From Icerya purchasi (Eukaryota; Arthropoda; Insecta; Hemiptera; Monophlebidae), in NCBI GenBank assembly GCA_039619475.1, contig CM077116.1:298200464-298264463 (forward strand): a stretch of 64,000 bases of DNA, given 5' to 3'. Both the position numbers and the translations under genes were made by a program. Shown here in pieces: positions 3,516-28,375 of this stretch. The stretch's first letter is position 1; the number at the start of each line of letters is the position of its first letter. The notes below the pieces were generated by a model, which searched no databases, was not told the origin of the DNA, and worked only from the letters and a program-made list of their open reading frames with translations.

Positions 3516-3575
3516 GTAAATGCGATAGGAGGAATAGGACACGAAACGAATTCAAAGTCAATAGCTAAAAAAAAC
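3508..3575 (+). repeat. ~70-bp repeat, inverted partner at 22,390-22,455
   Basis: The stretch around GGAGGAATAGGACAC matches the reverse complement of 22,390-22,455 at roughly 80% over about 66 bases. Both copies lie outside the big palindrome and are not at mirror-image positions (offset about 470 bp), so they are dispersed copies of a small repeat and not an extension of the arms. Confidence 0.6.
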
Positions 3576-3916
3576 AATCTAAAGGGAGACGAGGAGCACA
3601 ATGGTTAATTAATTCATTTGGGAAGCAGGTTAGGACAATACGTTTCTTTTTTCGATTTCCTACCCTTTTTTTCAGCTCATTGCATCCTTCGTGAGTCACG
3701 ACTACGTTTGTGGTACGAACTGTGTTTGTTGATGGTAGATTTGCATCATGTGAAAAAATGTTTATTTTAATTTCCTTTAATATTTTTATGTAGCCGTATT
3801 CGCTAAACGATTTCGCTTTTAATAGTATGTTTTCTGTGGAAGAGACGTTTTCCAGTTTTGTTCATTTTAGATCTGGTCAGTAATTCTTATTTACCGTTAT
3901 GCAACAGACGAAAAAA
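3576..3916. other. No gene seen
   Basis: AT-rich sequence ends in an A-run (about 3,911-3,926) just before the short LINE derivative. No coding frame, RNA gene or repeat was recognised. Confidence 0.6.
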
Positions 3917-3924: not shown

Positions 3925-3980
3925 AAGGAAAAATGGCCGCTCGTCTTTACCAGAGTTATTGTTAGTCCGTTCATTGTAGT
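3925..3980 (+). mobile_element. Short LINE derivative, 5' part (split by the palindrome)
   Basis: GGCCGCTCGTCTTTACCAGAG and the following bases align with 51,745-51,790, the start of a LINE 5' untranslated region (CCGCTCGTGCTTGCG, then TACCTGAGTAATCACCAGTC). The alignment resumes at 21,519 on the far side of the palindromic element. The giant element therefore inserted into this LINE copy about 55 bases from its 5' end. Confidence 0.6.
3966..3980 (+). repeat. Target-site duplication, left copy
   Basis: TCCGTTCATTGTAGT is repeated exactly at 21,519-21,533 in the same orientation. The last four or five bases overlap the apparent terminal inverted repeat, so the true duplication is 11-15 bp. 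Confidence 0.75.
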
Positions 3981-4340
3981 CGATAAACCAGATGACTGGC
4001 CGTTCCGCTAATCCGAACCCCAATTCCTGTCCCGGAAGCGAAAATTCACCCCAGACCGGTAATCCGAACTCAAAATTCACCCCAATTCATGTCCAGGTGG
4101 CCAAAATTCACCCAAGTTTCCCCCGATTCCTCCGAGTTTCCCCCGGACGGTTCCCGTGCATATCCGCTGATCCGAACGTCCAAACAGTGTCCCGAGGTCA
4201 ATAAACTGTCCAAAGTGTTATTCCGGGGCGCAAGTAACCCCAATTAGTGTCCAGGTGCTGAAAGTTCCCCCCAGTTCCGCAAATTTCTCCGAAATTCCCC
4301 AGTACACGTCCCGCTCGTTTCCGATAAACCGAACCGATTA
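3981..4340 (+). repeat. Subterminal short-motif cluster, left end
   Basis: The first ~350 bases of the arm carry short repeated motifs: CCCCAATTNNTGTCCNGG at 4,018, 4,080 and 4,238, and AAAATTCACCC(C)A at 4,041, 4,072 and 4,103. ATCCGAAC and CCGATAAACCGAAC also recur and echo the terminal CGATAAACC. Clusters like this near transposon tips are usually binding sites for the mobilising protein; that role is inferred. Confidence 0.6.
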
Positions 4341-4554
4341 TTAATTAACATAAGTATATTAATTAATGTCCGAAAGTAACCCAAGTCTCCGCTGACCCCG
4401 CCCGTCCTGCTATGGTACTGCAATTTTTTTTCAAAATTCCAAGGCCTAAGTAAGAAAATTCCAAAATTTAACCGCAATATATTATTTAAAGCGTAAATCT
4501 AACCTATAACTCCAGTTCACACCTCTCACACGTATATTTCGTTCCCGCGCACGC

Positions 4555-5105
4555 TCCGGTCGCCGTCGCGAAAGCGCACGCGCCGATCCCACGCATATTC
4601 CGATGTCCACAGCGATATCCCGCGCACACACGCGCTCCGTTCCCGATACCGCGATTGTTTTAATATATTTCAAAGTCTAAATTTTAATTTTCCCGATTCC
4701 CCGATCTTACTGCCATATGCCAAGACGCACGTCCCGATCCCGCGCATATATCCAATATAACGTTCTCCGCCGCAAAAGCGCACACGCCGATCCCACGCAT
4801 ATTCCGATGTCCACAGCGATATCCCGCGCACACACGCGCTCCGTTCCCGATACCGCGATTATTTCTTTAATATTTCAAAGCCTAAGTATACATAATATAA
4901 AATTAGCCGAAGTATATTTTTTATTTTCCTGATTTCCCGATCTTACTGCCATATGCTAAAGCGCTCGTCCCGATCTCGCGCATATATCTAACACAGCGTT
5001 ATTTTCCGCGAAAGCGCACGCGCCGATCCACCGCATATATCCAATATAACGTTAGCTGCGTGGAAGCGCACGCGCTGTTCCCCCGCACGTGTCCTCCGTT
5101 TACGC
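4555..5105 (+). repeat. CpG-rich ~204-bp tandem repeats, left end
   Basis: The block beginning AAAGCGCACGCGCCGATCC starts at 4,571 and recurs at 4,775 (period 204). It recurs in shortened form at 5,011 and 5,062. Within it, CCCGCGCATATATCCAATAT and TTACTGCCATATGC recur. CpG density is far above the flanks and the arm interior, which is odd if the surrounding AT-rich genome loses CpG through methylation. Confidence 0.75.
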
Positions 5106-5394
5106 TGCCACAATTTTTTTTAATTATTATTTTTTTTCACATAATAACCCAATCCCTGCTCTGTTGTCTAAACCTAACCGATTATCCAAAACATTTACAA
5201 ATTAACAAATCAAGTATTTCTGTAGTTTAAAACTATCCTTAGTCTCCTTTACCCCTTCCACCATCTTTTCCGATCGATTCCGTTGTTTTAATATCGAATA
5301 TATCGCATTCTATTTACTTTTACTACGACCATTAAACCCCCGATCGACGCTCTCGGCGCCTCCGTCATTTCATATTGAGAGGTAATTATTTTTT

Positions 5395-5755
5395 TATGTG
5401 ACCGCTATGAATGCACACCGTCCATTCCCGTACACCCATCTGATGTCGTTAGTTCCCATACCGTTCATAATAACTTTTATTCAACTCCAAGTATTATGGA
5501 ATTATTCCAATTATATATTTTCTTCACTTCCGATCATTTCTTCTGACCGTTCATAATATTTTTATTTTTCTCCGGTTCTAAAAATAAATCCTACAATGTC
5601 TTCAACGCGATGAATGCGCACACATCTGCCGTCGTTAGTTCCCATACCGTTCATAATAACTTTTTTCAACTCCAAGTATTATGGAATTATTCTAACTATA
5701 TTTTTTTTTTCGCTCCCGATCGTTTCTCCCGAACGTTCATAATTTTTTTCCAGAC
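5395..5755 (+). repeat. AT-rich ~186-bp repeat pair (CCGTTCATAAT module), left arm
   Basis: GTTAGTTCCCATACCGTTCA occurs at 5,448 and 5,634. Each copy is followed by CTCCAAGTATTATGGAATTA and a CGATC-TTTCT-C-GA-CGTTCATAAT block. Weaker copies lie near 7,015-7,100 and 9,270-9,350. These are dispersed element-specific modules with no coding potential. Confidence 0.7.
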
Positions 5756-7227
5756 ATAGGTATTCAAAAATGAAATCGAGTATAATTTTATTTAACACGG
5801 TTTCATAATTTCCCTCTCCATCCCCTATTCATCCAACACAAATTACAATTCTTTCATAATATATGTTCTAGACCCAGTCAATCAATCAACTCTCGCAGAA
5901 GTGTAGACGTTGCCTCCAACAACCATTTTACTATCAATTATTGTATATTATTGTTAGATTATTTTTCCAAAAAGTCTTTTGAAATTTTTTTCCGTTCGTA
6001 CATTTTTTTTGATTTTATTTGCATGACATCCATTTCCATGCCATACACGGTTCCCTAACAATTATAATATGTTTTATTTATTTTTCAACTCCTCCCAGAC
6101 TTACATACACGCCATATTGTCACACTCACAGATAGGTTCCTTATTAATCGTGAACATTTTTTTTTTTTGTATTATCCGCGGGAGCATATCACATCAGACC
6201 CACACATATCCACACACAGTTATTATATTTAATTTTTAATTATCGATCTTTAATTATTTTTACTGGTATTATTTTTCCGACACATTCACCCAGTCATACA
6301 TACTTTACATCTTTTAACATTTTGATAGAGAAAATCTCAGGGCACTAAATAATTTTTATCAACATCGTAACTAAGTTTAATATTATACACATCTCAGTAT
6401 AATTATTAAACGAAGGAACTATTATTTTCATTGACGATATTGTTGCTACAAACATTAATCGTCCTTTTCCAGGTATAGTCAACCTCTTCATGTATTCGGC
6501 TCGTCTTTCTATCAACCTTTGACCGCTCAATACCCCCCCCCCCCCGCTATTTACCGTTATTCGCTAGAAGAATATTTTTTTAGACATGTTGAAATACACA
6601 CATACACATAAAAAAATCGACATCAACGTCATCGAACACTGATCTCGACATTTCCAAGAAATTCAATCGCTGCTCCACAGTCTAAGATGTCTCCGCCCGC
6701 CTCACCAGTCGTTCGTAACATTATTGAAGCGCCTGTCATGTACTGTTATTTACGACCTTTTACAACATACAAATCCACGACATGTATACACCTTTTCTAG
6801 AAAGCATGGTGAAAATGGACAATCTCTCCCGATGAAAACCAGCTTGAATGATGTACCGTTATTTCATTCATTTTGCAGAAGGTTAATTTAAGGCCATGCA
6901 CCTTTTCTACTAATAAATAAGCAAATGTAACCTTTAAACCTTTCTACCTTTTTGCAATCAATTTACTGATTGTACATACTTTTTATATTTTTTTCCACAT
7001 ACTCCTTGATCGTCACAACCGCCACAAAAGCGCACCATCCATTCCCACACACTCATCTGCTACCGTTAGATCCCATATCATTCATAGTAATTTTTTCGAT
7101 TCTATTAGTTTAAGAATATTTCATTTTTTTTGTTGTTGTTTTTTTCTAACTGTAACATTTTTTTTTTTTTGAAATCTTTCGTATTATATTTTTTCTCCCA
7201 TATGGCTGTCACGTAGTCGTAGCGAAA
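5756..7227 (+). other. Arm interior, no gene seen
   Basis: AT-rich, poly(T)-rich sequence. Short frames occur, but they repeat in the other arm only because the arms are identical, and they show no domain. A C13 run lies at 6,533-6,545. Confidence 0.6.
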
Positions 7228-7659
7228 AATGCTCCGTTCATAACCTTGCATGCATGTTGCCTTGCATGTTGCCATACCGATCTATTAGATCGTGCGACAA
7301 TGTTATTGAGTCTGCTGAAACAGGATCTTCCTCTTCATATCTTCTGTAGAAAACGGTTTACATGTACACACCTACACTCAAACACACATATCTTCATCTC
7401 CCCTTGACGATGTCTTTCAATCACCTCTATAACCAAAGGAATGTGGTTTTTCTGGTACAACCCTCCCTTTTCAAAGGCGAGCATCGAGGTAGATTGTTGA
7501 ACGGATCTGATCGTGCAGGCAGTATTAGTTTTATGTTAAACGTGTGCATTTTGTAGAATCTGTGTTCTTCACGCGTTATTAAAAATTTACTGTAACGGTA
7601 AAAGTAATAATTTTCTACGTTTCTTTTTTAGTAAAAAGTTAAAAAAATATTAATCAAAC
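7228..7659 (+). promoter_or_regulatory. Upstream cassette of the 334-codon gene, left arm
   Basis: This region is strongly similar to 9,390-9,901, upstream of the other gene. Shared blocks include TTAGATCGTGCGACAATGTT, GAGTCTGCTGAAACAGG, GGTTTACATGTACACACC, CCAAAGGAATGTGGTTTTT, CGGATCTGATCGTGCAGGC and TGTTCTTCACGCGTTATTAA. GATCGTGC appears twice per cassette. Both cassettes end in a pyrimidine-rich tract and AG (7,630-7,631) about 28 bases before the ATG, like a 3' splice site. It is probably promoter plus 5' leader, possibly with a leader intron. A conserved short frame (LVQPSLFKG, NGSDRAGSIS) crosses the block. Confidence 0.6.
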
Positions 7660-8664
7660 ATGAATAACAATACCGATTCGATTGATATTAAAGCAGACGA
7701 ATTTATTCAGAATTCATTTTCGAATGATACTGACTCGCATTCGTCTTTTTCACCTCAAACACCGCAATATGATGAAGGTTATACATCAGAAGAATCAACA
7801 CCCCTTGTACGTAAAATCGTTGGTCCTGTATTATTATCAGAACAAGTGGATATAGCGGAATATTTTGTAGATATCAGCGTCCATATAGATTGTGATTATG
7901 GGTTTCGAGTAACTGAACTAGCAATGATTGATATGTCTGGAGGGAAGTGTTTGCATACGCTGTATAAGCCAAGCAGAGCATGGCATGCATCAAAAATGCT
8001 ACATTTACAATGTTCTTCAGTGAGTTATTACTTGAAGAACCCTTCATTATTTCCCTGTCGTGAAGAAATATTCATCGCGCGCGATATATTCACGATATTG
8101 TCCCAAAAACCGAGGGCTCGCGTATATGTTTTAACAGTATATGCTAAACTTACACTAATGGAACTTAACGAAAAGTCTGAATTGTTGCGTGATTTAGACT
8201 ACGAAATCGTTAATATGGATCAAGTCTTTCGATTATCTAGTATTGAGAATCTACATGAAGAGTATTTTGGTATAAGCAATTTGATAACTTGTAAACACCA
8301 TAATGAGAATGATAGTTTTCATTGTGCGGTGAAAAACGTTATGGTGATGAAGGCATGGTACGATCATGTCATCCGTCCGCTGAAGCTTATGAATAATCTC
8401 AATATAAATGATTTAAGTCAGTTGTTCATTACAACCACCAAAGAAATGATAATTACGTTATTTCCAAGTTGTGTTGGAGACATTTATACATTTTTACCAG
8501 ATAGACTAAAACAGGATGATACGATAAAATCACTTCTACCATGTTTTGAACATGAGAATGATGAAGAATATTATTTCGATGACGATATATTTCTGCATAG
8601 TACTCGAAATTGTATGAAAGTAAAAGATTGTATCGACTGCCAACGTACAATTCGCGCAGATTAA
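7660..8664 (+). CDS. 334-aa protein, divergent RNase H/DEDD-like family, left arm
   Basis: Intact ORF starting MNNNTDS; the start is fixed by the match to the sister gene at 9,902. Residues 1-24 are the shared leader (ADEFIQNSFSNDTDS), and residues 25-60 are Ser/Thr-rich. The body has YFVDISVHID (about 69-78), FRVTELAMID, LYKPSRAWHA, then RVYVLTVYAK, YEIVNMDQVF and CKHHNENDSFHCAVKNVMVM near 220-240. From memory this order (FVDIQ.., .KEL.I, FKPP, IYVKG.EK, VIDLE, C-H---CA-RNV--LK-WY) matches a large arthropod family that looks like a DEDD/RNase H-fold nuclease. The family's usual His-Gly-x-x-Trp block is not recognisable here, so activity is doubtful. The C-terminus is acidic, then HSTRNCMKVKDCIDCQ. 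It is identical to the right-arm copy. An uncharacterised element gene is the safe reading. Confidence 0.75.
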   Translation: MNNNTDSIDIKADEFIQNSFSNDTDSHSSFSPQTPQYDEGYTSEESTPLVRKIVGPVLLSEQVDIAEYFVDISVHIDCDYGFRVTELAMIDMSGGKCLHTLYKPSRAWHASKMLHLQCSSVSYYLKNPSLFPCREEIFIARDIFTILSQKPRARVYVLTVYAKLTLMELNEKSELLRDLDYEIVNMDQVFRLSSIENLHEEYFGISNLITCKHHNENDSFHCAVKNVMVMKAWYDHVIRPLKLMNNLNINDLSQLFITTTKEMIITLFPSCVGDIYTFLPDRLKQDDTIKSLLPCFEHENDEEYYFDDDIFLHSTRNCMKVKDCIDCQRTIRAD

Positions 8665-9389
8665 AAATTCATTAATTCGATCGTTTTTAACAATTTTGTA
8701 TATTTTTTCTGTATATTTTTGTGTGTATTTGTACATATATATTTTTTTTCAGACCGTTCGTTTTTATGTTTTCTTTAAAATTTTTTAAATATATTTTTAT
8801 ACACATGTAAATATTGTTTTGTATATATTTTGTATATATTTTTTCCCTCAATATCTATTCATTCTCATATTGTATATATTTTTGCTAATTATTTTTAATC
8901 TTTTTCCGATCCTTTCCGATTTCTGTTTATTTAATTTATTTAGCGATCTATCCTTCTCTCCCCCTCTTAACTTAAAGTACTGGTAATGACGAAATTTTCA
9001 AAAATCTGAACCAGTCGAGTATAATGTATATATAATTATTTAATTTTCGAATATATTTCCACATAATTTGTTCATATCTGTTTAGATTAAAAAATTAGAT
9101 TTTTGTCTGTAATACACCATTTTTTTATTTTTTTTGTGTGTAATAAGCGAATTTAACTGTTATACTTTTTCACGTACATCACGTATTTCCGCAGCTGTGA
9201 GAGTTTTCATCTGTTTGTAAGATACAACCTCTGACTCTAAATGTTCTCTAAATATTTTTTTTTTCGAGCCTAAATATTATAGAAATAGCCGAAGTATATT
9301 TTTTTCGTTTCTGACCATTTCTTCCGACCGTTCATAATTTTATATTTTTTCTCCAGTATGTATGCTCACTATCGTAGCGTAAATGTGCG
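8665..9389 (+). other. Gap between the two left-arm genes
   Basis: Very AT-rich 3' region with repeated TATATTTT and TGTATATATT stretches but no clear AATAAA close to the stop. At about 9,240-9,350 it holds a degenerate copy of the CCGTTCATAAT module. No gene was seen. Confidence 0.5.
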
Positions 9390-9901
9390 TCGCTCATAAC
9401 CTTACATGCATGTTGCCATACCGTTGTATTAGATCGTGCGACAATGTTATAGAGTCTGCTGAAACAGGTTCTTCCTCTTCATATCTTTTGTAGAACACGG
9501 TTTACATGTACACACCAACACACACCAACACACACATATAACCCAAAGAACACCTGCAAACTTCGTTCAGACACACCTGCAACCATCTTTCACCAAAGGA
9601 ATGTGGTTTTTTCTGGTGCAACCCTCCCTTTTCAAAGGCATGCTTCGAGCTCGAATGTCGAACGGATCTGATCGTGCAGGCAGTATTAGTGTTATGTTAA
9701 ACGTGTGGAATTTGTTGAAGCTGTGTTCTTCACGCGTTATTAAAATATTCTCAAGAACGATAAAGTCTGTAATTTCATACGTCTTTTCTCTTTTTCGTTC
9801 GCTCTTTATTTTCTGTCTTTTTTCTTTCTTATTGCACGTTATTCTTTTCGCTCTTATTTTCTCTCATTTTTTTAGTATAAATATTACAATAATAATCGAA
9901 T
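9390..9901 (+). promoter_or_regulatory. Upstream cassette of the 282-codon gene, left arm
   Basis: A paralogue of 7,228-7,659 with the same ordered blocks, including CGGATCTGATCGTGCAGGC and TGTTCTTCACGCGTTATTAA. A (CACACCAA)n tract at 9,510-9,543 is ten bases shorter than in the right arm. The pyrimidine tract CTCTCATTTTTTTAG ends at 9,875, 26 bases before the ATG, matching the spacing in the other cassette. Confidence 0.6.
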
Positions 9902-10750
9902 ATGAATAACAATACCGAATCGAATGTCGATAATGTCGCGGATTTCATTCAAAATTTTTTCGTAAATGATAATGATAATGCAATGTTTCCGGACGATTTT
10001 CCAAATATACATATGCCGCCACCACCACCACCAGCAGAAGAAACATCATTACAAGGGCCTTCGCTACATTCATTCTCAGATTTCATTCCATTGGCTACAT
10101 CAACACCTTTAGCATCACCGGTAATGTCACAAGATTTGCAAACTCCGTCGTTAACGCAAGTACCTTTGGTAAATGATGAAAAAGAATATAGCACAACAAT
10201 GTTGGAATTACCCAAAGAAATATTTAACCGAAAAGCAGTCGTCTATGTTAAAGACCCTAACGATCCAGAAAATAAAAATAGTTTCATGTATGCGGTTTTA
10301 GCAAAATTTACATCAAAACCATCATCGATGTGGCAGTACAATATTCTACAGAAAGTATACGATTTCAGCTTTATTCACTTACCGATCCAATCGCTGGCTG
10401 ATATTGAAACGTTTGAAAGAATAAACGCTGTATCAATCAACTTATACAAGCTGCTAGAAACCGACTATACAGATCAAAGTACATTCAACTACAAAATAAA
10501 AGTCGTGTACGCCTTCCGAAAAAATCACAGTTTGTTAAATCATAAACATCACACAAACATATTATATTGGGGATCTAATGGAAATTATCAATTCGCATGG
10601 ATAAAAAAATTCAGTCGATTGTTGCGGATCCAGTCGCCGAAAGCGAAATTTGTATGCTGGTCATGTCTCGATTCCATGAATACCGATTACGAACATAATA
10701 ATACTCACAGATGTGACGCAGTCAGTTGGCGTAATATGCACTACATGTAA
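9902..10750 (+). CDS. 282-aa protein, DNA-polymerase-B-element N-terminal domain relative, left arm
   Basis: Intact ORF starting MNNNTES with the shared leader ADFIQNFFVNDND. A Pro-rich segment (six prolines near residue 40) and a Ser/Thr/Pro-rich linker follow to about residue 95. The body has KDPNDPENKNSFMYAVLAKF, then YDFSFIHLPIQSLADIETFE and INAVSINLYKL. After these come NILYWGSNGNYQFAWIKKFS and a terminal finger CWSCLDSMN-x6-NNTHRC. From memory this is the domain found before type-B DNA polymerases in large eukaryotic DNA elements: N-x-x-CF-x-x-[AS]-[IV]-LA, YxxxxNxxGIxFPV, DIPKFExxNxISINVY, HY-x-[LW]-IKxxxxLL, then C-x2-C...H...C. Here the Cys is Ser and the HY histidine is Gln. If the fold is peptidase-like, this copy would be inactive. 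No polymerase follows; the protein ends after the finger. The zinc-finger spacing supports nucleic-acid or partner binding. Confidence 0.75.
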   Translation: MNNNTESNVDNVADFIQNFFVNDNDNAMFPDDFPNIHMPPPPPPAEETSLQGPSLHSFSDFIPLATSTPLASPVMSQDLQTPSLTQVPLVNDEKEYSTTMLELPKEIFNRKAVVYVKDPNDPENKNSFMYAVLAKFTSKPSSMWQYNILQKVYDFSFIHLPIQSLADIETFERINAVSINLYKLLETDYTDQSTFNYKIKVVYAFRKNHSLLNHKHHTNILYWGSNGNYQFAWIKKFSRLLRIQSPKAKFVCWSCLDSMNTDYEHNNTHRCDAVSWRNMHYM

Positions 10751-10753
10751 TTA

Positions 10754-10759
10754 AATAAA
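10754..10759 (+). terminator. AATAAA polyadenylation signal, left arm
   Basis: AATAAA lies four bases after the TAA of the 282-codon gene and is followed by T/G-rich sequence. It is mirrored at 14,726-14,731. Confidence 0.5.
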
Positions 10760-11089
10760 GACGTATTTTTTGTATTCATAGATGTATTTTTATTTTTCAA
10801 AAAAATCTTTTTACTTTGTTTCATACAAATTAATGTAATCTATATAATATAATAAATATTTTCATATGTATACATTTTTGTTTTTATTTTCCATAAACTT
10901 AAAATTCCAATTTTACTATTGTTGTTAATATATTCCAAACTCCAGTTTGTATTAAATCCTCTCGCTCCTTATGTTGAACAGACGAATCAATATTATTTAA
11001 CTGTTCAGTTAAGTGTATGCAGAGTCTTTTTATCTTGCTTAACTTTAAAGATATATGTTAGATTCTTTTTTCATTTGACAGTGTAAACG

Positions 11090-11480
11090 TTTTCTTCTTT
11101 TACAATTTTCTTATGCTTTATCACTATTACAACATTTTTCATCATTTTCTAACTAATTGTAAACATTTTTCCACTATTTCGTAACATGTTCTTATGTTTT
11201 AGGACTTTTTGCCCTATTTTTTTCACCAATTTATACTATTTCGAAGCATTTCATATGACTGAACGCTACTTAAGAAGTTTTTCGATAATTATCACCATTC
11301 CTCGCAATATTCATATGTTTTAACGCTTTTTACACTATTTTTCACAAATTCATGACATTTCGATTCATTTCTAATGTTTGAACGACTCATATGCAGTTTT
11401 TCGACAATTTTTCACCGTTCATCACTATATTTTTTTATGTTGTATCACCTTTTATGAAGTCTTCATCAAATTTTACCTTC
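11090..11480 (+). repeat. Degenerate ~60-75-bp tandem repeats, left arm
   Basis: About five diverged units recur, with the pattern CATATG(A), TTTCG, then TTTCAC and a spacer, then CG-TTTTT. They are best seen on the minus strand as CATATGAA-n-CGAAATA-n-GTGAAAAA-n-AAAAGCGTT. The frames here are by-products of the repeat. Confidence 0.6.
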
Positions 11481-12004
11481 ATTCAACAATATTTTCGTTA
11501 TTGTACCCCTTTGAACTGTTGTTTTACCCTAAAAGTGAGTGTATATCTAATTTGTTATAATTAAGAAAGAATGTAATGTATATTACAAATTTCCTTTCCT
11601 GGGAGTATGATTGTGTGTGCAGAATAATAAACTCTGGTAAGAAGCAGACTGTATCCACCATCAAGCAGGGTGTGTAATGCGTGGTAATTAACTCTGGCAT
11701 TGCACACATTGCAGGGTAGTTATGATATGTTTGAGCAAAAATTAGTTGTTGTATATCATTCATGTTAGTCATTAAATGTTCACACTGAGAGATGCAAGGA
11801 GGGCGTCAGCATATGAAACATTACGATTTTTATAATTATAATATACACTAAGCATGTATGTATTACAACGACCACATCAACTCTGTTAAGGACGGGAATG
11901 TTTGGAGGTAGATAGTGAACCGTTACATTAGAAGAGGAACATGGGTACATACATGGAAACATCATTAGCGATATTACATCACTTGTATGTCATCAAATTT
12001 AACT
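11481..12004 (+). other. Arm region with no gene; diverged ~200-bp module
   Basis: Contains the mirror of a module (about 11,605-11,795) that also appears, diverged and in the opposite orientation, at 12,885-13,080. Short open frames are shared with the other arm only through the palindrome. Confidence 0.5.
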
Positions 12005-12262
12005 AAAATGTTGCGTCCATAGTAAAAAATGCGAGGATTTTTCCTAAGAGGTTAAATTTTATGTCTAAGATGGCGAATATAATAAAATTGATGCGATTTT
12101 AGCTGAAGATGGGGTATTTTACACTAAAATCGTTGTTTTACACCTAAAGTGAGATTATTTGGGGAGATAAACGGTCTTTTTTCATGTAAAATTTTATGTT
12201 TTTTCTAAATGTGGCTATTTTTTGTCCTAAATGGAGTAATTTCTGTGTGAATGGCACTTTTT
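12005..12262 (+). repeat. Degenerate ~20-40-bp repeats (CTAAxxTGGxxTATTTT), left arm
   Basis: Successive variants of CTAAGATGGCGAATATAATA, TGAAGATGGGGTATTTTACA, CTAAATGTGGCTATTTTTTG and CCTAAATGGAGTAATTTC form a loose tandem array. It is mirrored at 13,223-13,480. Confidence 0.6.
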
Positions 12263-12453
12263 AGACTGGCCTATATACTTCTTGATGTGATATTCCATTC
12301 ATTGTGAAGCTATGCTTTGAAAGGGTTTGTGTCTGGTTGTGGGAACTTTCCAAACTTTTCTGATGCATCGATTATAGTATAATAGTTGTTGTGTGTTAGT
12401 GAGTAGATGGTGTTTGGATGGGAATAATAAATAGGGGTAAGAGGTGGAGTGTA

Positions 12454-13031
12454 TATGAATATGTGTAGATATGCACATTCACATATATGAGGTAAAAAGT
12501 AGCAAAGATGTACACATTAAATAATTTGGGGTTTTTACTCGAGGTCTGTAATAATTCTAAACCTTCTAGTTTGGATCATTGATTGAAGAAACGTATGCAA
12601 TTTCATATATAATATGATTCTTAAATTTTATTAAAATTTCTAAGTAAATTTGTTGTTTACTTCTATTTGTAAAGATTTGTATTATGTTGAGTGTGTTTAA
12701 GATATATTGCTTTATTTGTATGTAAAGACTGTTGAAATAATTAAAATTACTTTACATTATGAACTTTGTACCATGAAAATTATCAAAAAACATTATAAGA
12801 GTCGTTCAAAACATAAAAAAAAAATGGTGATTACAAATTAGTGAAAAATAATGTAATGATTGCATGGATCTTGATGATGACGAGTCCATCGCGTCTCTCA
12901 GTGTGATCTTTTAATGTAAAATCCTGAACGAGATACAACAACTAATTTTGACTTAACATATTATAACTGACTTGCAATGTGTTTAAATGATAGAGTTAAT
13001 TATCAAACAGTACTCTCCTTGCTTGATGTGG
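12454..13031. other. Unique centre of the palindrome
   Basis: The only part of the element without an inverted partner. It is AT-rich with no plausible coding frame. From about 12,885 it is a diverged direct copy of the arm sequence from about 13,690 (CTCTCAGTGTGA, ATACAACAACTAATTTT, GAGTTAATTA, CTTGCTTGATG), offset about 800 bp. Near 12,800 (GAGTCGTTCAAAACATAA) it matches the array at 14,095. The centre is thus built from the same modules as the arms. Confidence 0.7.
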
Positions 13032-13222
13032 TACACTCCACCTCTTACCCCTATTTATTATTCTCATCCAAACACCATCTACTCACTAACACACAACAAC
13101 TATTATACTATAATCGATGCATCAGAAAAGTTTGGAAAGTTCCCACAACCAGACACAAACCCTTTCAAAGCATAGCTTCACAATGAATGGAATATCACAT
13201 CAAGAAGTATATAGGCCAGTCT

Positions 13223-13480
13223 AAAAAGTGCCATTCACACAGAAATTACTCCATTTAGGACAAAAAATAGCCACATTTAGAAAAAACATAAAATTTTACA
13301 TGAAAAAAGACCGTTTATCTCCCCAAATAATCTCACTTTAGGTGTAAAACAACGATTTTAGTGTAAAATACCCCATCTTCAGCTAAAATCGCATCAATTT
13401 TATTATATTCGCCATCTTAGACATAAAATTTAACCTCTTAGGAAAAATCCTCGCATTTTTTACTATGGACGCAACATTTT
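13223..13480 (-). repeat. Degenerate ~20-40-bp repeats, right arm
   Basis: Mirror copy of 12,005-12,262. Confidence 0.6.
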
Positions 13481-14004
13481 AGTTAAATTTGATGACATAC
13501 AAGTGATGTAATATCGCTAATGATGTTTCCATGTATGTACCCATGTTCCTCTTCTAATGTAACGGTTCACTATCTACCTCCAAACATTCCCGTCCTTAAC
13601 AGAGTTGATGTGGTCGTTGTAATACATACATGCTTAGTGTATATTATAATTATAAAAATCGTAATGTTTCATATGCTGACGCCCTCCTTGCACCTCTCAG
13701 TGTGAACATTTAATGACTAACATGAATGATATACAACAACTAATTTTTGCTCAAACATATCATAACTACCCTGCAATGTGTGCAATGCCAGAGTTAATTA
13801 CCACGCATTACACACCCTGCTTGATGGTGGATACAGTCTGCTTCTTACCAGAGTTTATTATTCTGCACACACAATCATACTCCCAGGAAAGGAAATTTGT
13901 AATATACATTACATTCTTTCTTAATTATAACAAATTAGATATACACTCACTTTTAGGGTAAAACAACAGTTCAAAGGGGTACAATAACGAAAATATTGTT
14001 GAAT

Positions 14005-14395
14005 GAAGGTAAAATTTGATGAAGACTTCATAAAAGGTGATACAACATAAAAAAATATAGTGATGAACGGTGAAAAATTGTCGAAAAACTGCATATGAGT
14101 CGTTCAAACATTAGAAATGAATCGAAATGTCATGAATTTGTGAAAAATAGTGTAAAAAGCGTTAAAACATATGAATATTGCGAGGAATGGTGATAATTAT
14201 CGAAAAACTTCTTAAGTAGCGTTCAGTCATATGAAATGCTTCGAAATAGTATAAATTGGTGAAAAAAATAGGGCAAAAAGTCCTAAAACATAAGAACATG
14301 TTACGAAATAGTGGAAAAATGTTTACAATTAGTTAGAAAATGATGAAAAATGTTGTAATAGTGATAAAGCATAAGAAAATTGTAAAAGAAGAAAA
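14005..14395 (-). repeat. Degenerate ~60-75-bp tandem repeats, right arm
   Basis: Mirror copy of 11,090-11,480. Units begin near CATATGA at about 14,092, 14,168 and 14,229, and CATAAGAA at about 14,289. Confidence 0.6.
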
Positions 14396-14725
14396 CGTTT
14401 ACACTGTCAAATGAAAAAAGAATCTAACATATATCTTTAAAGTTAAGCAAGATAAAAAGACTCTGCATACACTTAACTGAACAGTTAAATAATATTGATT
14501 CGTCTGTTCAACATAAGGAGCGAGAGGATTTAATACAAACTGGAGTTTGGAATATATTAACAACAATAGTAAAATTGGAATTTTAAGTTTATGGAAAATA
14601 AAAACAAAAATGTATACATATGAAAATATTTATTATATTATATAGATTACATTAATTTGTATGAAACAAAGTAAAAAGATTTTTTTGAAAAATAAAAATA
14701 CATCTATGAATACAAAAAATACGTC

Positions 14726-14731
14726 TTTATT
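14726..14731 (-). terminator. AATAAA polyadenylation signal, right arm
   Basis: TTTATT on the plus strand, four bases downstream of the minus-strand stop codon of the 282-codon gene. Confidence 0.5.
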
Positions 14732-14734
14732 TAA

Positions 14735-15583
14735 TTACATGTAGTGCATATTACGCCAACTGACTGCGTCACATCTGTGAGTATTATTATGTTCGTAATC
14801 GGTATTCATGGAATCGAGACATGACCAGCATACAAATTTCGCTTTCGGCGACTGGATCCGCAACAATCGACTGAATTTTTTTATCCATGCGAATTGATAA
14901 TTTCCATTAGATCCCCAATATAATATGTTTGTGTGATGTTTATGATTTAACAAACTGTGATTTTTTCGGAAGGCGTACACGACTTTTATTTTGTAGTTGA
15001 ATGTACTTTGATCTGTATAGTCGGTTTCTAGCAGCTTGTATAAGTTGATTGATACAGCGTTTATTCTTTCAAACGTTTCAATATCAGCCAGCGATTGGAT
15101 CGGTAAGTGAATAAAGCTGAAATCGTATACTTTCTGTAGAATATTGTACTGCCACATCGATGATGGTTTTGATGTAAATTTTGCTAAAACCGCATACATG
15201 AAACTATTTTTATTTTCTGGATCGTTAGGGTCTTTAACATAGACGACTGCTTTTCGGTTAAATATTTCTTTGGGTAATTCCAACATTGTTGTGCTATATT
15301 CTTTTTCATCATTTACCAAAGGTACTTGCGTTAACGACGGAGTTTGCAAATCTTGTGACATTACCGGTGATGCTAAAGGTGTTGATGTAGCCAATGGAAT
15401 GAAATCTGAGAATGAATGTAGCGAAGGCCCTTGTAATGATGTTTCTTCTGCTGGTGGTGGTGGTGGCGGCATATGTATATTTGGAAAATCGTCCGGAAAC
15501 ATTGCATTATCATTATCATTTACGAAAAAATTTTGAATGAAATCCGCGACATTATCGACATTCGATTCGGTATTGTTATTCAT
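14735..15583 (-). CDS. 282-aa protein, right-arm copy
   Basis: Encodes the same 282 residues as the left-arm gene at 9,902-10,750, with no amino-acid difference that I could see. It keeps the shared MNNNTES leader, the proline run, the NSFMYAVLAKF block with Ser where relatives have Cys, the NYQFAWIKKF block with Gln where relatives have His, and the terminal CWSC...HNNTHRC finger. It faces its twin across the centre, so the two copies are transcribed convergently about 4 kb apart. Perfect identity of a non-essential-looking duplicate means either a very recent origin of the palindrome or continuing gene conversion between arms. Confidence 0.75.
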   Translation of the reverse strand: MNNNTESNVDNVADFIQNFFVNDNDNAMFPDDFPNIHMPPPPPPAEETSLQGPSLHSFSDFIPLATSTPLASPVMSQDLQTPSLTQVPLVNDEKEYSTTMLELPKEIFNRKAVVYVKDPNDPENKNSFMYAVLAKFTSKPSSMWQYNILQKVYDFSFIHLPIQSLADIETFERINAVSINLYKLLETDYTDQSTFNYKIKVVYAFRKNHSLLNHKHHTNILYWGSNGNYQFAWIKKFSRLLRIQSPKAKFVCWSCLDSMNTDYEHNNTHRCDAVSWRNMHYM

Positions 15584-16105
15584 ATTCGATTATTATTGTA
15601 ATATTTATACTAAAAAAATGAGAGAAAATAAGAGCGAAAAGAATAACGTGCAATAAGAAAGAAAAAAGACAGAAAATAAAGAGCGAACGAAAAAGAGAAA
15701 AGACGTATGAAATTACAGACTTTATCGTTCTTGAGAATATTTTAATAACGCGTGAAGAACACAGCTTCAACAAATTCCACACGTTTAACATAACACTAAT
15801 ACTGCCTGCACGATCAGATCCGTTCGACATTCGAGCTCGAAGCATGCCTTTGAAAAGGGAGGGTTGCACCAGAAAAAACCACATTCCTTTGGTGAAAGAT
15901 GGTTGCAGGTGTGTCTGAACGAAGTTTGCAGGTGTTCTTTGGGTTATATGTGTGTGTATGTGTGTGTTGGTGTGTGTTGGTGTGTACATGTAAACCGTGT
16001 TCTACAAAAGATATGAAGAGGAAGAACCTGTTTCAGCAGACTCTATAACATTGTCGCACGATCTAATACAACGGTATGGCAACATGCATGTAAGGTTATG
16101 AGCGA
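15584..16105 (-). promoter_or_regulatory. Upstream cassette of the 282-codon gene, right arm
   Basis: Mirror of 9,390-9,901 with ten extra bases in the CA-rich tract (15,945-15,985). The longer tract opens a 137-codon upstream frame through the conserved LVQPSLFKG and NGSDRAGSIS blocks, which the left arm has only in shorter form. Confidence 0.6.
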
Positions 16106-16830
16106 CGCACATTTACGCTACGATAGTGAGCATACATACTGGAGAAAAAATATAAAATTATGAACGGTCGGAAGAAATGGTCAGAAACGAAAAAAATATA
16201 CTTCGGCTATTTCTATAATATTTAGGCTCGAAAAAAAAAATATTTAGAGAACATTTAGAGTCAGAGGTTGTATCTTACAAACAGATGAAAACTCTCACAG
16301 CTGCGGAAATACGTGATGTACGTGAAAAAGTATAACAGTTAAATTCGCTTATTACACACAAAAAAAATAAAAAAATGGTGTATTACAGACAAAAATCTAA
16401 TTTTTTAATCTAAACAGATATGAACAAATTATGTGGAAATATATTCGAAAATTAAATAATTATATATACATTATACTCGACTGGTTCAGATTTTTGAAAA
16501 TTTCGTCATTACCAGTACTTTAAGTTAAGAGGGGGAGAGAAGGATAGATCGCTAAATAAATTAAATAAACAGAAATCGGAAAGGATCGGAAAAAGATTAA
16601 AAATAATTAGCAAAAATATATACAATATGAGAATGAATAGATATTGAGGGAAAAAATATATACAAAATATATACAAAACAATATTTACATGTGTATAAAA
16701 ATATATTTAAAAAATTTTAAAGAAAACATAAAAACGAACGGTCTGAAAAAAAATATATATGTACAAATACACACAAAAATATACAGAAAAAATATACAAA
16801 ATTGTTAAAAACGATCGAATTAATGAATTT

Positions 16831-17835
16831 TTAATCTGCGCGAATTGTACGTTGGCAGTCGATACAATCTTTTACTTTCATACAATTTCGAGTACTATGC
16901 AGAAATATATCGTCATCGAAATAATATTCTTCATCATTCTCATGTTCAAAACATGGTAGAAGTGATTTTATCGTATCATCCTGTTTTAGTCTATCTGGTA
17001 AAAATGTATAAATGTCTCCAACACAACTTGGAAATAACGTAATTATCATTTCTTTGGTGGTTGTAATGAACAACTGACTTAAATCATTTATATTGAGATT
17101 ATTCATAAGCTTCAGCGGACGGATGACATGATCGTACCATGCCTTCATCACCATAACGTTTTTCACCGCACAATGAAAACTATCATTCTCATTATGGTGT
17201 TTACAAGTTATCAAATTGCTTATACCAAAATACTCTTCATGTAGATTCTCAATACTAGATAATCGAAAGACTTGATCCATATTAACGATTTCGTAGTCTA
17301 AATCACGCAACAATTCAGACTTTTCGTTAAGTTCCATTAGTGTAAGTTTAGCATATACTGTTAAAACATATACGCGAGCCCTCGGTTTTTGGGACAATAT
17401 CGTGAATATATCGCGCGCGATGAATATTTCTTCACGACAGGGAAATAATGAAGGGTTCTTCAAGTAATAACTCACTGAAGAACATTGTAAATGTAGCATT
17501 TTTGATGCATGCCATGCTCTGCTTGGCTTATACAGCGTATGCAAACACTTCCCTCCAGACATATCAATCATTGCTAGTTCAGTTACTCGAAACCCATAAT
17601 CACAATCTATATGGACGCTGATATCTACAAAATATTCCGCTATATCCACTTGTTCTGATAATAATACAGGACCAACGATTTTACGTACAAGGGGTGTTGA
17701 TTCTTCTGATGTATAACCTTCATCATATTGCGGTGTTTGAGGTGAAAAAGACGAATGCGAGTCAGTATCATTCGAAAATGAATTCTGAATAAATTCGTCT
17801 GCTTTAATATCAATCGAATCGGTATTGTTATTCAT
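16831..17835 (-). CDS. 334-aa protein, right-arm copy
   Basis: Encodes the same 334 residues as 7,660-8,664. The features are those of the left copy: a shared leader to about residue 24, a Ser/Thr-rich linker, then the FVDISVHID, TELAMID, VYVLTVYAK and CKHHNENDSFHCAVKNV blocks of the suspected RNase H/DEDD-like family. It is transcribed toward the centre of the palindrome, upstream of the 282-codon gene and on the same strand. The two genes are about 1.25 kb apart with separate cassettes, so they look like independent transcription units and not an operon. Confidence 0.75.
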   Translation of the reverse strand: MNNNTDSIDIKADEFIQNSFSNDTDSHSSFSPQTPQYDEGYTSEESTPLVRKIVGPVLLSEQVDIAEYFVDISVHIDCDYGFRVTELAMIDMSGGKCLHTLYKPSRAWHASKMLHLQCSSVSYYLKNPSLFPCREEIFIARDIFTILSQKPRARVYVLTVYAKLTLMELNEKSELLRDLDYEIVNMDQVFRLSSIENLHEEYFGISNLITCKHHNENDSFHCAVKNVMVMKAWYDHVIRPLKLMNNLNINDLSQLFITTTKEMIITLFPSCVGDIYTFLPDRLKQDDTIKSLLPCFEHENDEEYYFDDDIFLHSTRNCMKVKDCIDCQRTIRAD

Positions 17836-18267
17836 GTTTGATTAATATTTTTTTAACTTTTTACTAAAAAAGAAACGTAGAAAATTATTACTTTTACCGT
17901 TACAGTAAATTTTTAATAACGCGTGAAGAACACAGATTCTACAAAATGCACACGTTTAACATAAAACTAATACTGCCTGCACGATCAGATCCGTTCAACA
18001 ATCTACCTCGATGCTCGCCTTTGAAAAGGGAGGGTTGTACCAGAAAAACCACATTCCTTTGGTTATAGAGGTGATTGAAAGACATCGTCAAGGGGAGATG
18101 AAGATATGTGTGTTTGAGTGTAGGTGTGTACATGTAAACCGTTTTCTACAGAAGATATGAAGAGGAAGATCCTGTTTCAGCAGACTCAATAACATTGTCG
18201 CACGATCTAATAGATCGGTATGGCAACATGCAAGGCAACATGCATGCAAGGTTATGAACGGAGCATT
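17836..18267 (-). promoter_or_regulatory. Upstream cassette of the 334-codon gene, right arm
   Basis: Mirror of 7,228-7,659 with the same conserved blocks and the same AG-ended pyrimidine tract about 28 bases before the ATG. Confidence 0.6.
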
Positions 18268-19737
18268 TTTCGCTACGACTACGTGACAGCCATATGGGAG
18301 AAAAAATATAATACGAAAGATTTCAAAAAAAAAAAAATGTTACAGTTAGAAAAAAACAACAACAAAAAAAATGAAATATTCTTAAACTAATAGAATCGAA
18401 AAAATTACTATGAATGATATGGGATCTAACGGTAGCAGATGAGTGTGTGGGAATGGATGGTGCGCTTTTGTGGCGGTTGTGACGATCAAGGAGTATGTGG
18501 AAAAAAATATAAAAAGTATGTACAATCAGTAAATTGATTGCAAAAAGGTAGAAAGGTTTAAAGGTTACATTTGCTTATTTATTAGTAGAAAAGGTGCATG
18601 GCCTTAAATTAACCTTCTGCAAAATGAATGAAATAACGGTACATCATTCAAGCTGGTTTTCATCGGGAGAGATTGTCCATTTTCACCATGCTTTCTAGAA
18701 AAGGTGTATACATGTCGTGGATTTGTATGTTGTAAAAGGTCGTAAATAACAGTACATGACAGGCGCTTCAATAATGTTACGAACGACTGGTGAGGCGGGC
18801 GGAGACATCTTAGACTGTGGAGCAGCGATTGAATTTCTTGGAAATGTCGAGATCAGTGTTCGATGACGTTGATGTCGATTTTTTTATGTGTATGTGTGTA
18901 TTTCAACATGTCTAAAAAAATATTCTTCTAGCGAATAACGGTAAATAGCGGGGGGGGGGGGTATTGAGCGGTCAAAGGTTGATAGAAAGACGAGCCGAAT
19001 ACATGAAGAGGTTGACTATACCTGGAAAAGGACGATTAATGTTTGTAGCAACAATATCGTCAATGAAAATAATAGTTCCTTCGTTTAATAATTATACTGA
19101 GATGTGTATAATATTAAACTTAGTTACGATGTTGATAAAAATTATTTAGTGCCCTGAGATTTTCTCTATCAAAATGTTAAAAGATGTAAAGTATGTATGA
19201 CTGGGTGAATGTGTCGGAAAAATAATACCAGTAAAAATAATTAAAGATCGATAATTAAAAATTAAATATAATAACTGTGTGTGGATATGTGTGGGTCTGA
19301 TGTGATATGCTCCCGCGGATAATACAAAAAAAAAAATGTTCACGATTAATAAGGAACCTATCTGTGAGTGTGACAATATGGCGTGTATGTAAGTCTGGGA
19401 GGAGTTGAAAAATAAATAAAACATATTATAATTGTTAGGGAACCGTGTATGGCATGGAAATGGATGTCATGCAAATAAAATCAAAAAAAATGTACGAACG
19501 GAAAAAAATTTCAAAAGACTTTTTGGAAAAATAATCTAACAATAATATACAATAATTGATAGTAAAATGGTTGTTGGAGGCAACGTCTACACTTCTGCGA
19601 GAGTTGATTGATTGACTGGGTCTAGAACATATATTATGAAAGAATTGTAATTTGTGTTGGATGAATAGGGGATGGAGAGGGAAATTATGAAACCGTGTTA
19701 AATAAAATTATACTCGATTTCATTTTTGAATACCTAT
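18268..19737 (-). other. Right-arm interior, no gene seen
   Basis: Mirror of 5,756-7,227. A G12 run at 18,950-18,961 faces the C13 run of the left arm. Confidence 0.6.
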
Positions 19738-20098
19738 GTCTGGAAAAAAATTATGAACGTTCGGGAGAAACGATCGGGAGCGAAAAAAAAAATATAGTTA
19801 GAATAATTCCATAATACTTGGAGTTGAAAAAAGTTATTATGAACGGTATGGGAACTAACGACGGCAGATGTGTGCGCATTCATCGCGTTGAAGACATTGT
19901 AGGATTTATTTTTAGAACCGGAGAAAAATAAAAATATTATGAACGGTCAGAAGAAATGATCGGAAGTGAAGAAAATATATAATTGGAATAATTCCATAAT
20001 ACTTGGAGTTGAATAAAAGTTATTATGAACGGTATGGGAACTAACGACATCAGATGGGTGTACGGGAATGGACGGTGTGCATTCATAGCGGTCACATA
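19738..20098 (-). repeat. AT-rich ~186-bp repeat pair, right arm
   Basis: Mirror of 5,395-5,755. TGAACGGTATGGGAACTAAC occurs near 19,840 and 20,026. Confidence 0.7.
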
Positions 20099-20387
20099 AA
20101 AAAATAATTACCTCTCAATATGAAATGACGGAGGCGCCGAGAGCGTCGATCGGGGGTTTAATGGTCGTAGTAAAAGTAAATAGAATGCGATATATTCGAT
20201 ATTAAAACAACGGAATCGATCGGAAAAGATGGTGGAAGGGGTAAAGGAGACTAAGGATAGTTTTAAACTACAGAAATACTTGATTTGTTAATTTGTAAAT
20301 GTTTTGGATAATCGGTTAGGTTTAGACAACAGAGCAGGGATTGGGTTATTATGTGAAAAAAAATAATAATTAAAAAAAATTGTGGCA

Positions 20388-20938
20388 GCGTAAACGGAGG
20401 ACACGTGCGGGGGAACAGCGCGTGCGCTTCCACGCAGCTAACGTTATATTGGATATATGCGGTGGATCGGCGCGTGCGCTTTCGCGGAAAATAACGCTGT
20501 GTTAGATATATGCGCGAGATCGGGACGAGCGCTTTAGCATATGGCAGTAAGATCGGGAAATCAGGAAAATAAAAAATATACTTCGGCTAATTTTATATTA
20601 TGTATACTTAGGCTTTGAAATATTAAAGAAATAATCGCGGTATCGGGAACGGAGCGCGTGTGTGCGCGGGATATCGCTGTGGACATCGGAATATGCGTGG
20701 GATCGGCGTGTGCGCTTTTGCGGCGGAGAACGTTATATTGGATATATGCGCGGGATCGGGACGTGCGTCTTGGCATATGGCAGTAAGATCGGGGAATCGG
20801 GAAAATTAAAATTTAGACTTTGAAATATATTAAAACAATCGCGGTATCGGGAACGGAGCGCGTGTGTGCGCGGGATATCGCTGTGGACATCGGAATATGC
20901 GTGGGATCGGCGCGTGCGCTTTCGCGACGGCGACCGGA
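20388..20938 (-). repeat. CpG-rich ~204-bp tandem repeats, right end
   Basis: Mirror of 4,555-5,105. The repeated GCGCGTGTGTGCGCGGGATA block lies near 20,654 and 20,858. Confidence 0.75.
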
Positions 20939-21149
20939 GCGTGCGCGGGAACGAAATATACGTGTGAGAGGTGTGAACTGGAGTTATAGGTTAGATTTAC
21001 GCTTTAAATAATATATTGCGGTTAAATTTTGGAATTTTCTTACTTAGGCCTTGGAATTTTGAAAAAAAATTGCAGTACCATAGCAGGACGGGCGGGGTCA
21101 GCGGAGACTTGGGTTACTTTCGGACATTAATTAATATACTTATGTTAAT

Positions 21150-21512
21150 TAATAATCGGTTCGGTTTATCGGAAACGAGCGGGACGTGTACTGGGGAATT
21201 TCGGAGAAATTTGCGGAACTGGGGGGAACTTTCAGCACCTGGACACTAATTGGGGTTACTTGCGCCCCGGAATAACACTTTGGACAGTTTATTGACCTCG
21301 GGACACTGTTTGGACGTTCGGATCAGCGGATATGCACGGGAACCGTCCGGGGGAAACTCGGAGGAATCGGGGGAAACTTGGGTGAATTTTGGCCACCTGG
21401 ACATGAATTGGGGTGAATTTTGAGTTCGGATTACCGGTCTGGGGTGAATTTTCGCTTCCGGGACAGGAATTGGGGTTCGGATTAGCGGAACGGCCAGTCG
21501 CCTGGTTTATCG
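21150..21512 (-). repeat. Subterminal short-motif cluster, right end
   Basis: Mirror of the left-end cluster. CCTGGACACTAATTGGGG, CCTGGACATGAATTGGGG and CCGGGACAGGAATTGGGG occur near 21,238, 21,396 and 21,458. Confidence 0.6.
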
Positions 21513-21518
21513 ACTACT

Positions 21519-21533
21519 TCCGTTCATTGTAGT
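21519..21533 (+). repeat. Target-site duplication, right copy
   Basis: Exact 15-bp match to 3,966-3,980. One or two bases separate it from the last base of the arm, depending on how the end is set. Confidence 0.75.
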
Positions 21534-22060: not shown

Positions 22061-22762
22061 AATTTTTATAACCTTTCTACCTGTTATTGTGTGTACTATA
22101 TATTTTCGCTTTCATCCGTAGACACTGTTTTCCTATTTCGATACGGTCAATATTGCTGCATGTATTAAAATTTAATCTGCTTCATCTTCAATTTTTAATT
22201 GCTGAATTACCTCAGTAGCGTTGCGGAGAAAAAAAAACGCAAAAATTTCTAGTTTGTTTTTTTCTTCCTTTCCGCGGGGACCTTTTGTTACTAGAAATTG
22301 TCGAGTTTATCATTCGTGTTATCCTAGCCCGTTTCCGAAATAAATGAATATCGTGTCAGACTGCACGACCAGCTTTAGTAAATTATTATTTGTTAGTTAT
22401 TTACTTTAAACTTCGCTTTGTGTCCTATTCCTCCTTTCGCATTTACAGCGGGTCTGAGACTGTGAGTCAGTGAGAAATATGTGAACACGAATTTACCGGT
22501 TGAGAAGAAAACGGTTCGCTGGAGGAAAAGCTGGAGGACGCATTATTATCAGTCATTCGTGAAACAAACTAACAGAAAATACTTTTCAACAACAGTCACA
22601 GATGTTCTAGTGTTTTAAAGTTTTAGCTGAAAAGAAGTAACCTTCTCGCTTGATTACCTGAACCGGCAATTCGTTCCTCTAGCACGTCCACTTCTCACTA
22701 AAATGGGGATACAGCGTTAATACAATTCGATTTCTCGTCCCTTCAAGAACAAAAGTAACACC

Positions 22763-22799: not shown

Positions 22800-23287
22800 A
22801 AACTTCAACAGAAAACGATCCTTACAAAAAAAACACGCTTTATTAACTTTTCGATAAACAAAACAGTCGGCAAACTCCACTAGTTCCACTTAAAACCGTA
22901 TGAATTACACCAGCAATAGCAAATTTTTCTCTATGGAGAGTTTTTTGAAATCAGAAAAGTTTTCCTTAAATATAGATAAATCTATATCTGTTTGTTAAGT
23001 TTTATAAATATAAAATAAAAAAGTACCTCAATGACAATTAAAAATAACTGACTTTAATAAATTAAAATAAATAAATTTAAGGAAACCTTTTTCGGGCACA
23101 ACCCATCATCTACTAATAATACAGAGTGTACTCATTTGTGTTTTTAGTTTCAATCGAGTGTACTGTGTCTATTGTATGATGGACTATGACCGAAAACGTT
23201 TTCTTAAATCGAGGTATTCATTTTAATTTATTAAAGTTAATACTTATCTTTATTATTAAGCTATTTATTCATTTTAAATTTGCCTCG
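22795..23287. other. No gene seen
   Basis: AT-rich sequence with no coding frame or repeat recognised. Confidence 0.5.

Positions 23288-24534: not shown

Positions 24535-24541
<7 letters not shown>
23833..24541. mobile_element. ~710-bp fold-back element
   Basis: Arms 23,833-24,163 and 24,213-24,541 pair through blocks such as GTCCGACCGGTTTTGTCTAG with CTAGACGAAACCGGTCGGAC, and TCTACCGGCGATAATTCGAA with its near mirror near 24,230. The loop is about 50 bp. The arms have diverged by scattered substitutions and indels, so this copy is older than the giant palindrome. Confidence 0.75.

Positions 24542-24574: not shown

Positions 24575-24577
<3 letters not shown>

Positions 24578-28341: not shown

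Positions 28342-28375
<34 letters not shown>

Follow-up and report, generated by a model that had tools for sequence, protein, structure and literature searches.

The 64,000-nucleotide stretch of Icerya purchasi DNA analysed here (contig CM077116.1 of assembly GCA_039619475.1, positions 298,200,464 to 298,264,463; hereafter the window) contains a 17.5-kb mirror-image element, and our results suggest, with a probability of roughly 0.8, that it is one copy of a palindromic, non-autonomous, gene-bearing ("snap-back") lineage of Polintons/Mavericks, which would be copied by snap-back and moved by a Polinton integrase. The original prediction, made from the letters of the window, had placed the element at 3976-21517 and called its class unknown. 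The palindrome proved to be real (3976-21518), with 8.48-kb arms, and the class could be assigned, because the ends, the 6-bp target duplications of other copies and an end sequence shared with an integrase-bearing element place it with the Polintons/Mavericks, which are described as elements of 15-25 kb encoding a family B DNA polymerase (PolB) and an integrase (PMC6431247).

Alignment of the two predicted arms (3976-12453 against 13032-21517) gave 99.81% identity over 8,488 columns, with 4 mismatches and 3 gaps. The differences corresponded to four substitutions (two of them adjacent, 3992-3993), two homopolymer indels and one 10-bp tandem unit. The 578-bp centre, which had been described as unique, was single-copy in the window, but it is the inner end of the right arm, whose counterpart has been lost from the left arm; the same sequence was found in both arms of five other copies (E3, E5, E6, E9 and E10, see below). 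Each arm carried the two intact genes that had been predicted, open reading frames (ORFs) of 334 (P1) and 282 (P2) amino acids (aa) reading toward the centre; ATG-started ORFs reached at most 170 aa in 300 dinucleotide-shuffled versions of the arm. The arm ends were CpG-rich and repeat-bearing, as had also been noticed, with a CpG observed/expected ratio of up to 2.2 as compared with 1.19 for the window. The ratio was 0.48-0.87 at 11501-14000, comprising the inner arms and the centre, and about 1.0-2.2 in the remaining arm.

The terminal 501 bp of the element was used to search the genome (1.10 Gb in 41 contigs, the two largest of 602 and 497 Mb); 40 of 1,994 candidates were scored, so the counts are lower bounds. 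At least 67 matches were obtained, and the 40 long ones could be sorted into 15 inverted pairs 17.5-24.9 kb apart and 10 single ends. Besides the window's own pair, ten pairs were retrieved in two halves each (E1-E10), and the palindrome tests left out four of the 15 pairs (C2:413.4 and C2:70.07 Mb, both read near the centre only, and C1:317.7 and C2:75.7 Mb). All ten fetched copies were palindromic, with lengths of 17,893-19,633 bp; each one was flanked by an exact 6-bp target duplication, and AGTAGTC was found at 20 of their 20 ends. Near-perfect palindromes can be produced by hairpin reads, and an assembly or library fold-back artefact had to be considered for this reason. However, the palindromes stopped at the element termini, next to the duplications, at all ten sites, their centres varied in length and content, and their flanks were unlike each other and unmirrored, which makes an artefact very improbable.

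Nine of the ten copies, all but E8, resembled the window copy in having P1 and P2 in each arm (W-type hereafter). The P1 genes of E2 and E4 and the P2 gene of E7 were broken, and each of these broken genes was letter-identical in both arms. The arms of the ten copies approached to within 0.1-1.7 kb of each other, which is not how elements with very long terminal repeats that had lost their middle, another origin proposed at the outset, would look. Inner sequence was lost on one side in the window copy, E1, E2, E4 and E7, and a TA-rich minisatellite occupied the centre of E3, E4, E5, E9 and E10 (the innermost 231 bp of E6 were outside the data).

A 15-bp direct repeat, TCCGTTCATTGTAGT, was present at 3966-3980 and 21519-21533, as predicted, but the ten other copies indicated 6 bp and not 15 bp as the size of the target duplication. 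The right junction of the window copy was canonical, with ACTACT followed by TCCGTT, and on the left side the target TCCGTTCATTGTAGT continued directly into CGATAAACC. The 15-bp repeat is thus probably a 6-bp duplication plus microhomology, and the simplest reading would be that the left end was joined via a shared GTAGT, nine bases past TCCGTT. Taken alone, this repeat could be read as 9, 10 or 15 bp, and long arms that carry subterminal repeats are also known from Foldback elements, Tetris among them (PMC4079207), so that the element might have been a Foldback/Mutator-like transposon with giant terminal inverted repeats (TIRs) and captured genes. The 6-bp duplications of all ten other copies, against the 8-11 bp given for Mutator-like elements (MULEs) in PMC6446971, ruled out the reading based on a 9-10 bp repeat, and the ends were common to an element, E8, with a retroviral-type integrase; we therefore consider a Foldback/MULE origin highly unlikely. 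No above-cut-off Pfam match, to a MULE transposase or otherwise, was obtained for P1, P2 and two short ORFs, to which the profile scan of the arm was limited. Tetris is like our elements in its long inverted arms with internal repeats and in being non-autonomous; it differs in its 8-10 bp duplications, TIRs of up to 1,735 bp and lack of conserved ORFs in three complete copies (PMC4079207).

Polinton TIRs start with 5'-AG, in agreement with the AGTAGTC ends, and a link with the Polintons was provided by E8, whose first 716 columns were shared with the window arm at 95%. The arms of E8 were of 8,945 bp with 3 mismatches, around a centre of about 141 bp. Its left arm encoded an rve integrase (PF00665, 3.9e-12) with a weak, below-cut-off chromodomain match, a Pox_A32-type ATPase (5.8e-11), an adenovirus-type (adenain-like) protease (Peptidase_C5, 1.3e-4, 22.2 bits against a cut-off of 21.3), a PLA2-like protein (1.1e-12) and two ORFs that matched the double-jelly-roll family (5.2e-29 and 2.7e-14), which implies that the capsid gene of E8 is interrupted. 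The fold-back point was inside a P1-like gene, and the nine ORFs preceding this gene recurred in the right arm at 100% aa identity. Integrases of the rve type are reported to generate 6-bp duplications (PMC12220804).

When the E8 integrase was used to search the genome, 119 of 1,678 candidates were scored and at least 119 matches with 86-100% identity were obtained (a lower bound), 16 of them in eight inverted pairs with a variable spacing of 11.1-15.0 kb and 103 without a listed partner. One of these 103 partnerless copies (C2:69.98 Mb, L042) was sampled. It carried PolB past a P1-like gene, recognised by matches to PF03175 (1.8e-8) and Endonuclease_7; the C-terminal ORF matched nothing in Pfam and is presumably PolB, to judge from its motifs. 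The right end of this copy was 88-89% identical to arm positions 31-1829 of the window element, with 88% for the family's terminal 0.7 kb. The link with PolB elements that had been suspected from the proteins was thus upheld: other elements in this genome whose ends are of the same type carried an integrase, in E8 and elsewhere, and a polymerase was present in the single copy sampled.

The central 3 kb was read for six further integrase pairs, with the eighth pair (C2:466.24) left out. The pair at C2:367 was self-complementary throughout, with its fold about 0.6 kb short of the 3'-end of PolB, and at C2:253 a stretch of about 1.1 kb in the centre was single-copy. Fold-back points varied between the palindromic Polintons. 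C2:283 and C2:466a had one common fold-back point and a 130-bp centre, suggesting that palindromes appear to move as palindromes. The flanks of three further palindromic Polintons were TATTCG/TATTCG, AGTGTC/AGTGTC and GACGGT/GACAGT, two exact and one matching at 5 of 6 positions; the ends of C1:519, C2:283 and C2:466a were not at the expected positions. Two integrase pairs of equal spacing lay side by side at C2:466225461-466253667, where two palindromic Polintons seem to be adjacent.

At a threshold of 1e-3, neither the window element nor any of the 18 halves of the nine W-type copies matched the integrase, ATPase, protease, capsid or PLA2 proteins of E8 or the PolB ORFs. Since no integrase was detectable, the W-type is considered to be a non-autonomous derivative and not a full Polinton. 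The P1-like protein of E8 matched P1 in the W-type elements (26% aa identity with the window's P1, E 3e-25 in a two-protein comparison), the space between P1 and P2 in these elements contained a fragment similar to 39-51 residues of the coiled-coil gene of E8, and a stretch 3' of P1 resembled the DNA just past PolB (Table 1). It follows that the W-type arm is built as a mosaic from pieces of Polintons. P2 resembled the N-terminal part of PolB in the sampled single-integrase Polinton (30% aa identity, 55.5 bits), and no polymerase domain was found in it.

Searches with P1 and P2 against Pfam, PHROGs and NCBIfam (Pfam matches only below the cut-off), PDB (best E 0.19), 5.8 billion proteins and viral contigs, and with P2 alone against genome contigs and phages, gave nothing useful. 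One contig (L001) from a motif scan was rejected, because the match was out of frame with the overlying ORF and the ORFs of the contig looked phage-like. Single-sequence AlphaFold models were uninformative (mean pLDDT, the predicted confidence score, of 31.3 and 35.3). The ratio of nonsynonymous to synonymous polymorphism (pN/pS), from pooled, non-independent pairs, was 0.45 for P1 (8 intact copies) and 0.38 for P2 (9 intact copies), which indicates that both genes evolve under constraint. P1 and P2 also had a common leader of about 350 bp and were alike in their first 26 residues (7263-7740 and 9407-9975; 17 of 27 columns identical), with no other blastp match between them beyond these residues, as though one expression cassette had been placed ahead of two unrelated genes.

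In order to compare arms within and between insertions, a 3.49-kb P1-P2 fragment was taken from ten W-type copies (the window copy plus nine). There were 8 mismatches in 34,880 sites between the arms of the same copy, as compared with 0.81-2.36% between copies. Two of the eight were in the window copy, where the arm alignment had shown only the 10-bp unit difference, and these are probably alignment effects. In the tree, the arms of the same copy were sisters in ten out of ten cases. Each arm does have one Polinton-type end, as would be expected from two independent 8.5-kb insertions in opposite orientation; however, the sister relationship, the single duplication pair flanking the whole element, the lack of a second end or duplication at the inner boundary of the window copy and the lack, among the eleven copies compared, of any single-arm insertion with ends on both sides make this explanation extremely unlikely.

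The best reading of these identities is that each palindrome was copied from one arm or was strongly homogenised. Chromosomal gene conversion is the main rival for the arm identity: the family would be palindromic and Polinton-derived, and its arms would be kept identical by frequent conversion after insertion, as in the palindromes of Y chromosomes, and not by hairpin copying. Conversion yields within-copy identity at any age, and the sharp step in E1 from 95.6% to 99.83% is as a conversion tract would give. On the other side, five of the ten W-type copies (the window copy, E1, E2, E4 and E7) retained their one-sided inner deletions while the other parts of their arms were mostly near-identical, so that we regard conversion as possible but rather unlikely. 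The terminal arms of three palindromic integrase elements, with 0 mismatches in 642, 451 and 473 bp, fit conversion and hairpin copying alike.

A hairpin or strand-switch origin of the palindrome, as had been proposed initially, fits the data on the snap-back Polinton lineage, and from these we infer the following steps. While the element is replicated outside the chromosome, a strand that has been displaced or nicked would fold back on itself and serve as template up to its own end; the product would be a self-complementary molecule in which one terminus is present twice, and the integrase supplied by Polintons would insert it with a 6-bp stagger. A new palindrome would be copied from one arm, or mismatches between the paired arms would be repaired in the hairpin intermediate; either would make the arms near-identical within an insertion even though copies differ. 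Later one-sided deletions near the centre would cut the symmetry and would have left the 578-bp centre of the window copy.

Several observations weigh against this interpretation. P1 and P2 differed from the compared Polinton genes by 70-75% of their aa and the ends by only about 12%, so the source Polinton of the W-type was not found among the compared elements. Its arm combines right-end DNA with a piece of a left-half gene and is not a plain folded half. Since W-type copies had no integrase or polymerase match, their mobilisation would presumably occur in trans, and the extrachromosomal hairpin intermediate is likewise a postulated step. The match of P2 crossed one stop in the PolB copy, and nothing was found at 1e-3 when the two ORFs of that copy were searched separately. 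The sampled single-integrase copy lacked the outermost left end (about 250 bp), and the left junction of the window copy was non-canonical. Two of the eight integrase pairs, C2:18.4 and C1:519, had no self-complementarity in the central 3 kb; their palindrome is indicated by the inverted integrase pair and, for C2:18.4, also by identical ends. The outer 3.2 kb of E1 was about 91-96% identical between arms as compared with 99.83% for the inner 5.95 kb, implying either that some copies are incompletely copied or homogenised or that arms recombine. Finally, the central minisatellite was a poor mirror image: its half-windows (221-300 bp) agreed at 46-76% in E3, E4, E5, E9 and E10, and the centre of E8 reached 83%. 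For this reason it is a spacer between the mirrored arms.

Compared with known systems, the elements share with Polintons/Mavericks the 6-bp duplication, inverted termini and 15-25 kb size (PMC6431247), as well as the rve integrase, A32-type ATPase, adenain-like protease and double-jelly-roll capsid of E8 and the PolB of the sampled copy. The window type differs in being palindromic over almost its full length, with its genes twice in mirror image, and in having no detectable integrase, ATPase, protease, capsid or polymerase. Polinton-like viruses of cryptophytes also have an rve integrase with 6-bp duplications; in contrast, they keep TIRs of 100 bp-8 kb, and a palindromic architecture is unmentioned in the part of that report consulted (PMC12220804). 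No palindromic Polinton was found in a literature search covering titles and abstract openings of the papers listed. The snapback genomes of adeno-associated virus (AAV) are the closest mechanistic parallel. These 5'-SBG and 3'-SBG forms are described as subgenomes in which one or the other half is self-complementary; a single kind of terminus is present, and the molecule is symmetric or has an asymmetric loop (PMC8235507). E8 is such a self-complementary half, with one half and one terminus represented; in the window type the other end is present and the interior is a mosaic. AAV forms are subgenomic particles of a parvovirus (PMC8235507), whereas ours are chromosomal insertions with target duplications and have one fold-back point common to more than one insertion.

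Viral replication is known to yield snap-back genomes as by-products; in the present case, molecules of this kind are chromosomal, multi-copy and carry conserved genes. We would give about even odds to a broader proposal, that of a heritable lineage of obligately self-complementary replicons, in which a palindromic Polinton satellite would be regenerated from a single arm in each round of transposition, would maintain two selected proteins (one of them a stand-alone PolB N-terminal domain) and would use the integrase and polymerase of full Polintons, defective snap-back genomes having thus turned into a stable family of mobile elements. The mode of Polinton replication has been hard to test so far, and fold-back points and arm identities record it. 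It also seems, from these elements, that the integrase can use molecules in which both ends are the same, and long palindromes, as well as convergent transcription prone to yield double-stranded RNA, could be studied in them in a natural setting.

Table 1. Features of the palindromic element and its flanks (window coordinates).
Feature	Position	Strand	Basis or remark
Left arm	3976..12453	+	Arm alignment
Right arm	13032..21518 (aligned to 21517)	-	Arm alignment; canonical ACTACT at end
Single-copy centre, right-arm inner end	12454..13031	-	Comparison with E3, E5, E6, E9, E10
Left flanking direct repeat TCCGTTCATTGTAGT	3966..3980	+	First 6 bp, TCCGTT, presumed target duplication
Right flanking direct repeat	21519..21533	+	After canonical element end ...GACTACT/TCCGTT
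Terminal region common to E8 (95%, 716 columns), left copy	3976..4690	+	Alignment with E8
Terminal region common to E8, right copy	20803..21517	-	Alignment with E8, arm comparison
Region homologous to PolB-side end of sampled single-integrase Polinton (C2:69.98 Mb), 88-89% DNA identity	4006..5804	+	Two overlapping pieces, arm positions 31-1829
36-nt CpG-rich unit, six copies, subterminal	4567..5094	+	Seventh copy at 7023-7058
Leader/promoter-like repeat before P1, left arm	7263..7587	+	Repeated before P2
P1, 334 aa, left arm	7660..8664	+	Homolog of E8 P1-like protein
Stretch 89% identical to DNA just past PolB 3'-end in L042 (L042:1993-2242)	8798..9043	+	Sequence match, 3' of P1
39-residue fragment of E8 coiled-coil gene (87% aa), between P1 and P2	9133..9249	-	Mirrored at 16246-16362
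Leader/promoter-like repeat before P2, left arm	9407..9749	+	Repeat of P1 leader
P2, 282 aa, left arm	9902..10750	+	Resembles N-terminal part of Polinton PolB
P2, right arm, identical	14735..15583	-	Arm comparison
P1, right arm, identical	16831..17835	-	Arm comparison

The ten unpaired ends were analysed as 2-kb samples (blastn at 1e-20 over 200 bp, tblastn at 1e-5). Four were W-type over 65-100% of the sample and one for 285 bp only, another carried a P1 fragment continuing into a reverse transcriptase, and the remaining four had no similarity to the window element or E8. The 24.9-kb copy (L030:34-4920, C2:413.42 Mb) had about 4.9 kb of central tandem repeats, with offsets of about 285 bp at 77% and about 580 bp at 96%, and the central region of the 22-kb copy (L031, C2:70.08 Mb) contained three copies of the window centre sequence, two in one direction and one reversed.

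Outside the element, an inverted repeat (74%) was found beyond both ends (3509-3642 and 22315-22453). AT-rich self-complementary stretches, perhaps hairpins similar to miniature inverted-repeat transposable elements, were clustered in the adjoining 22800-24700 region, where 23836-24531 formed an inverted repeat of its own (78-79%). Finally, two pieces of a long interspersed nuclear element (LINE) lay in opposite orientation at 28347-29409 and 41684-43303, matching each other at 98-99.6% (918 and 167 columns).

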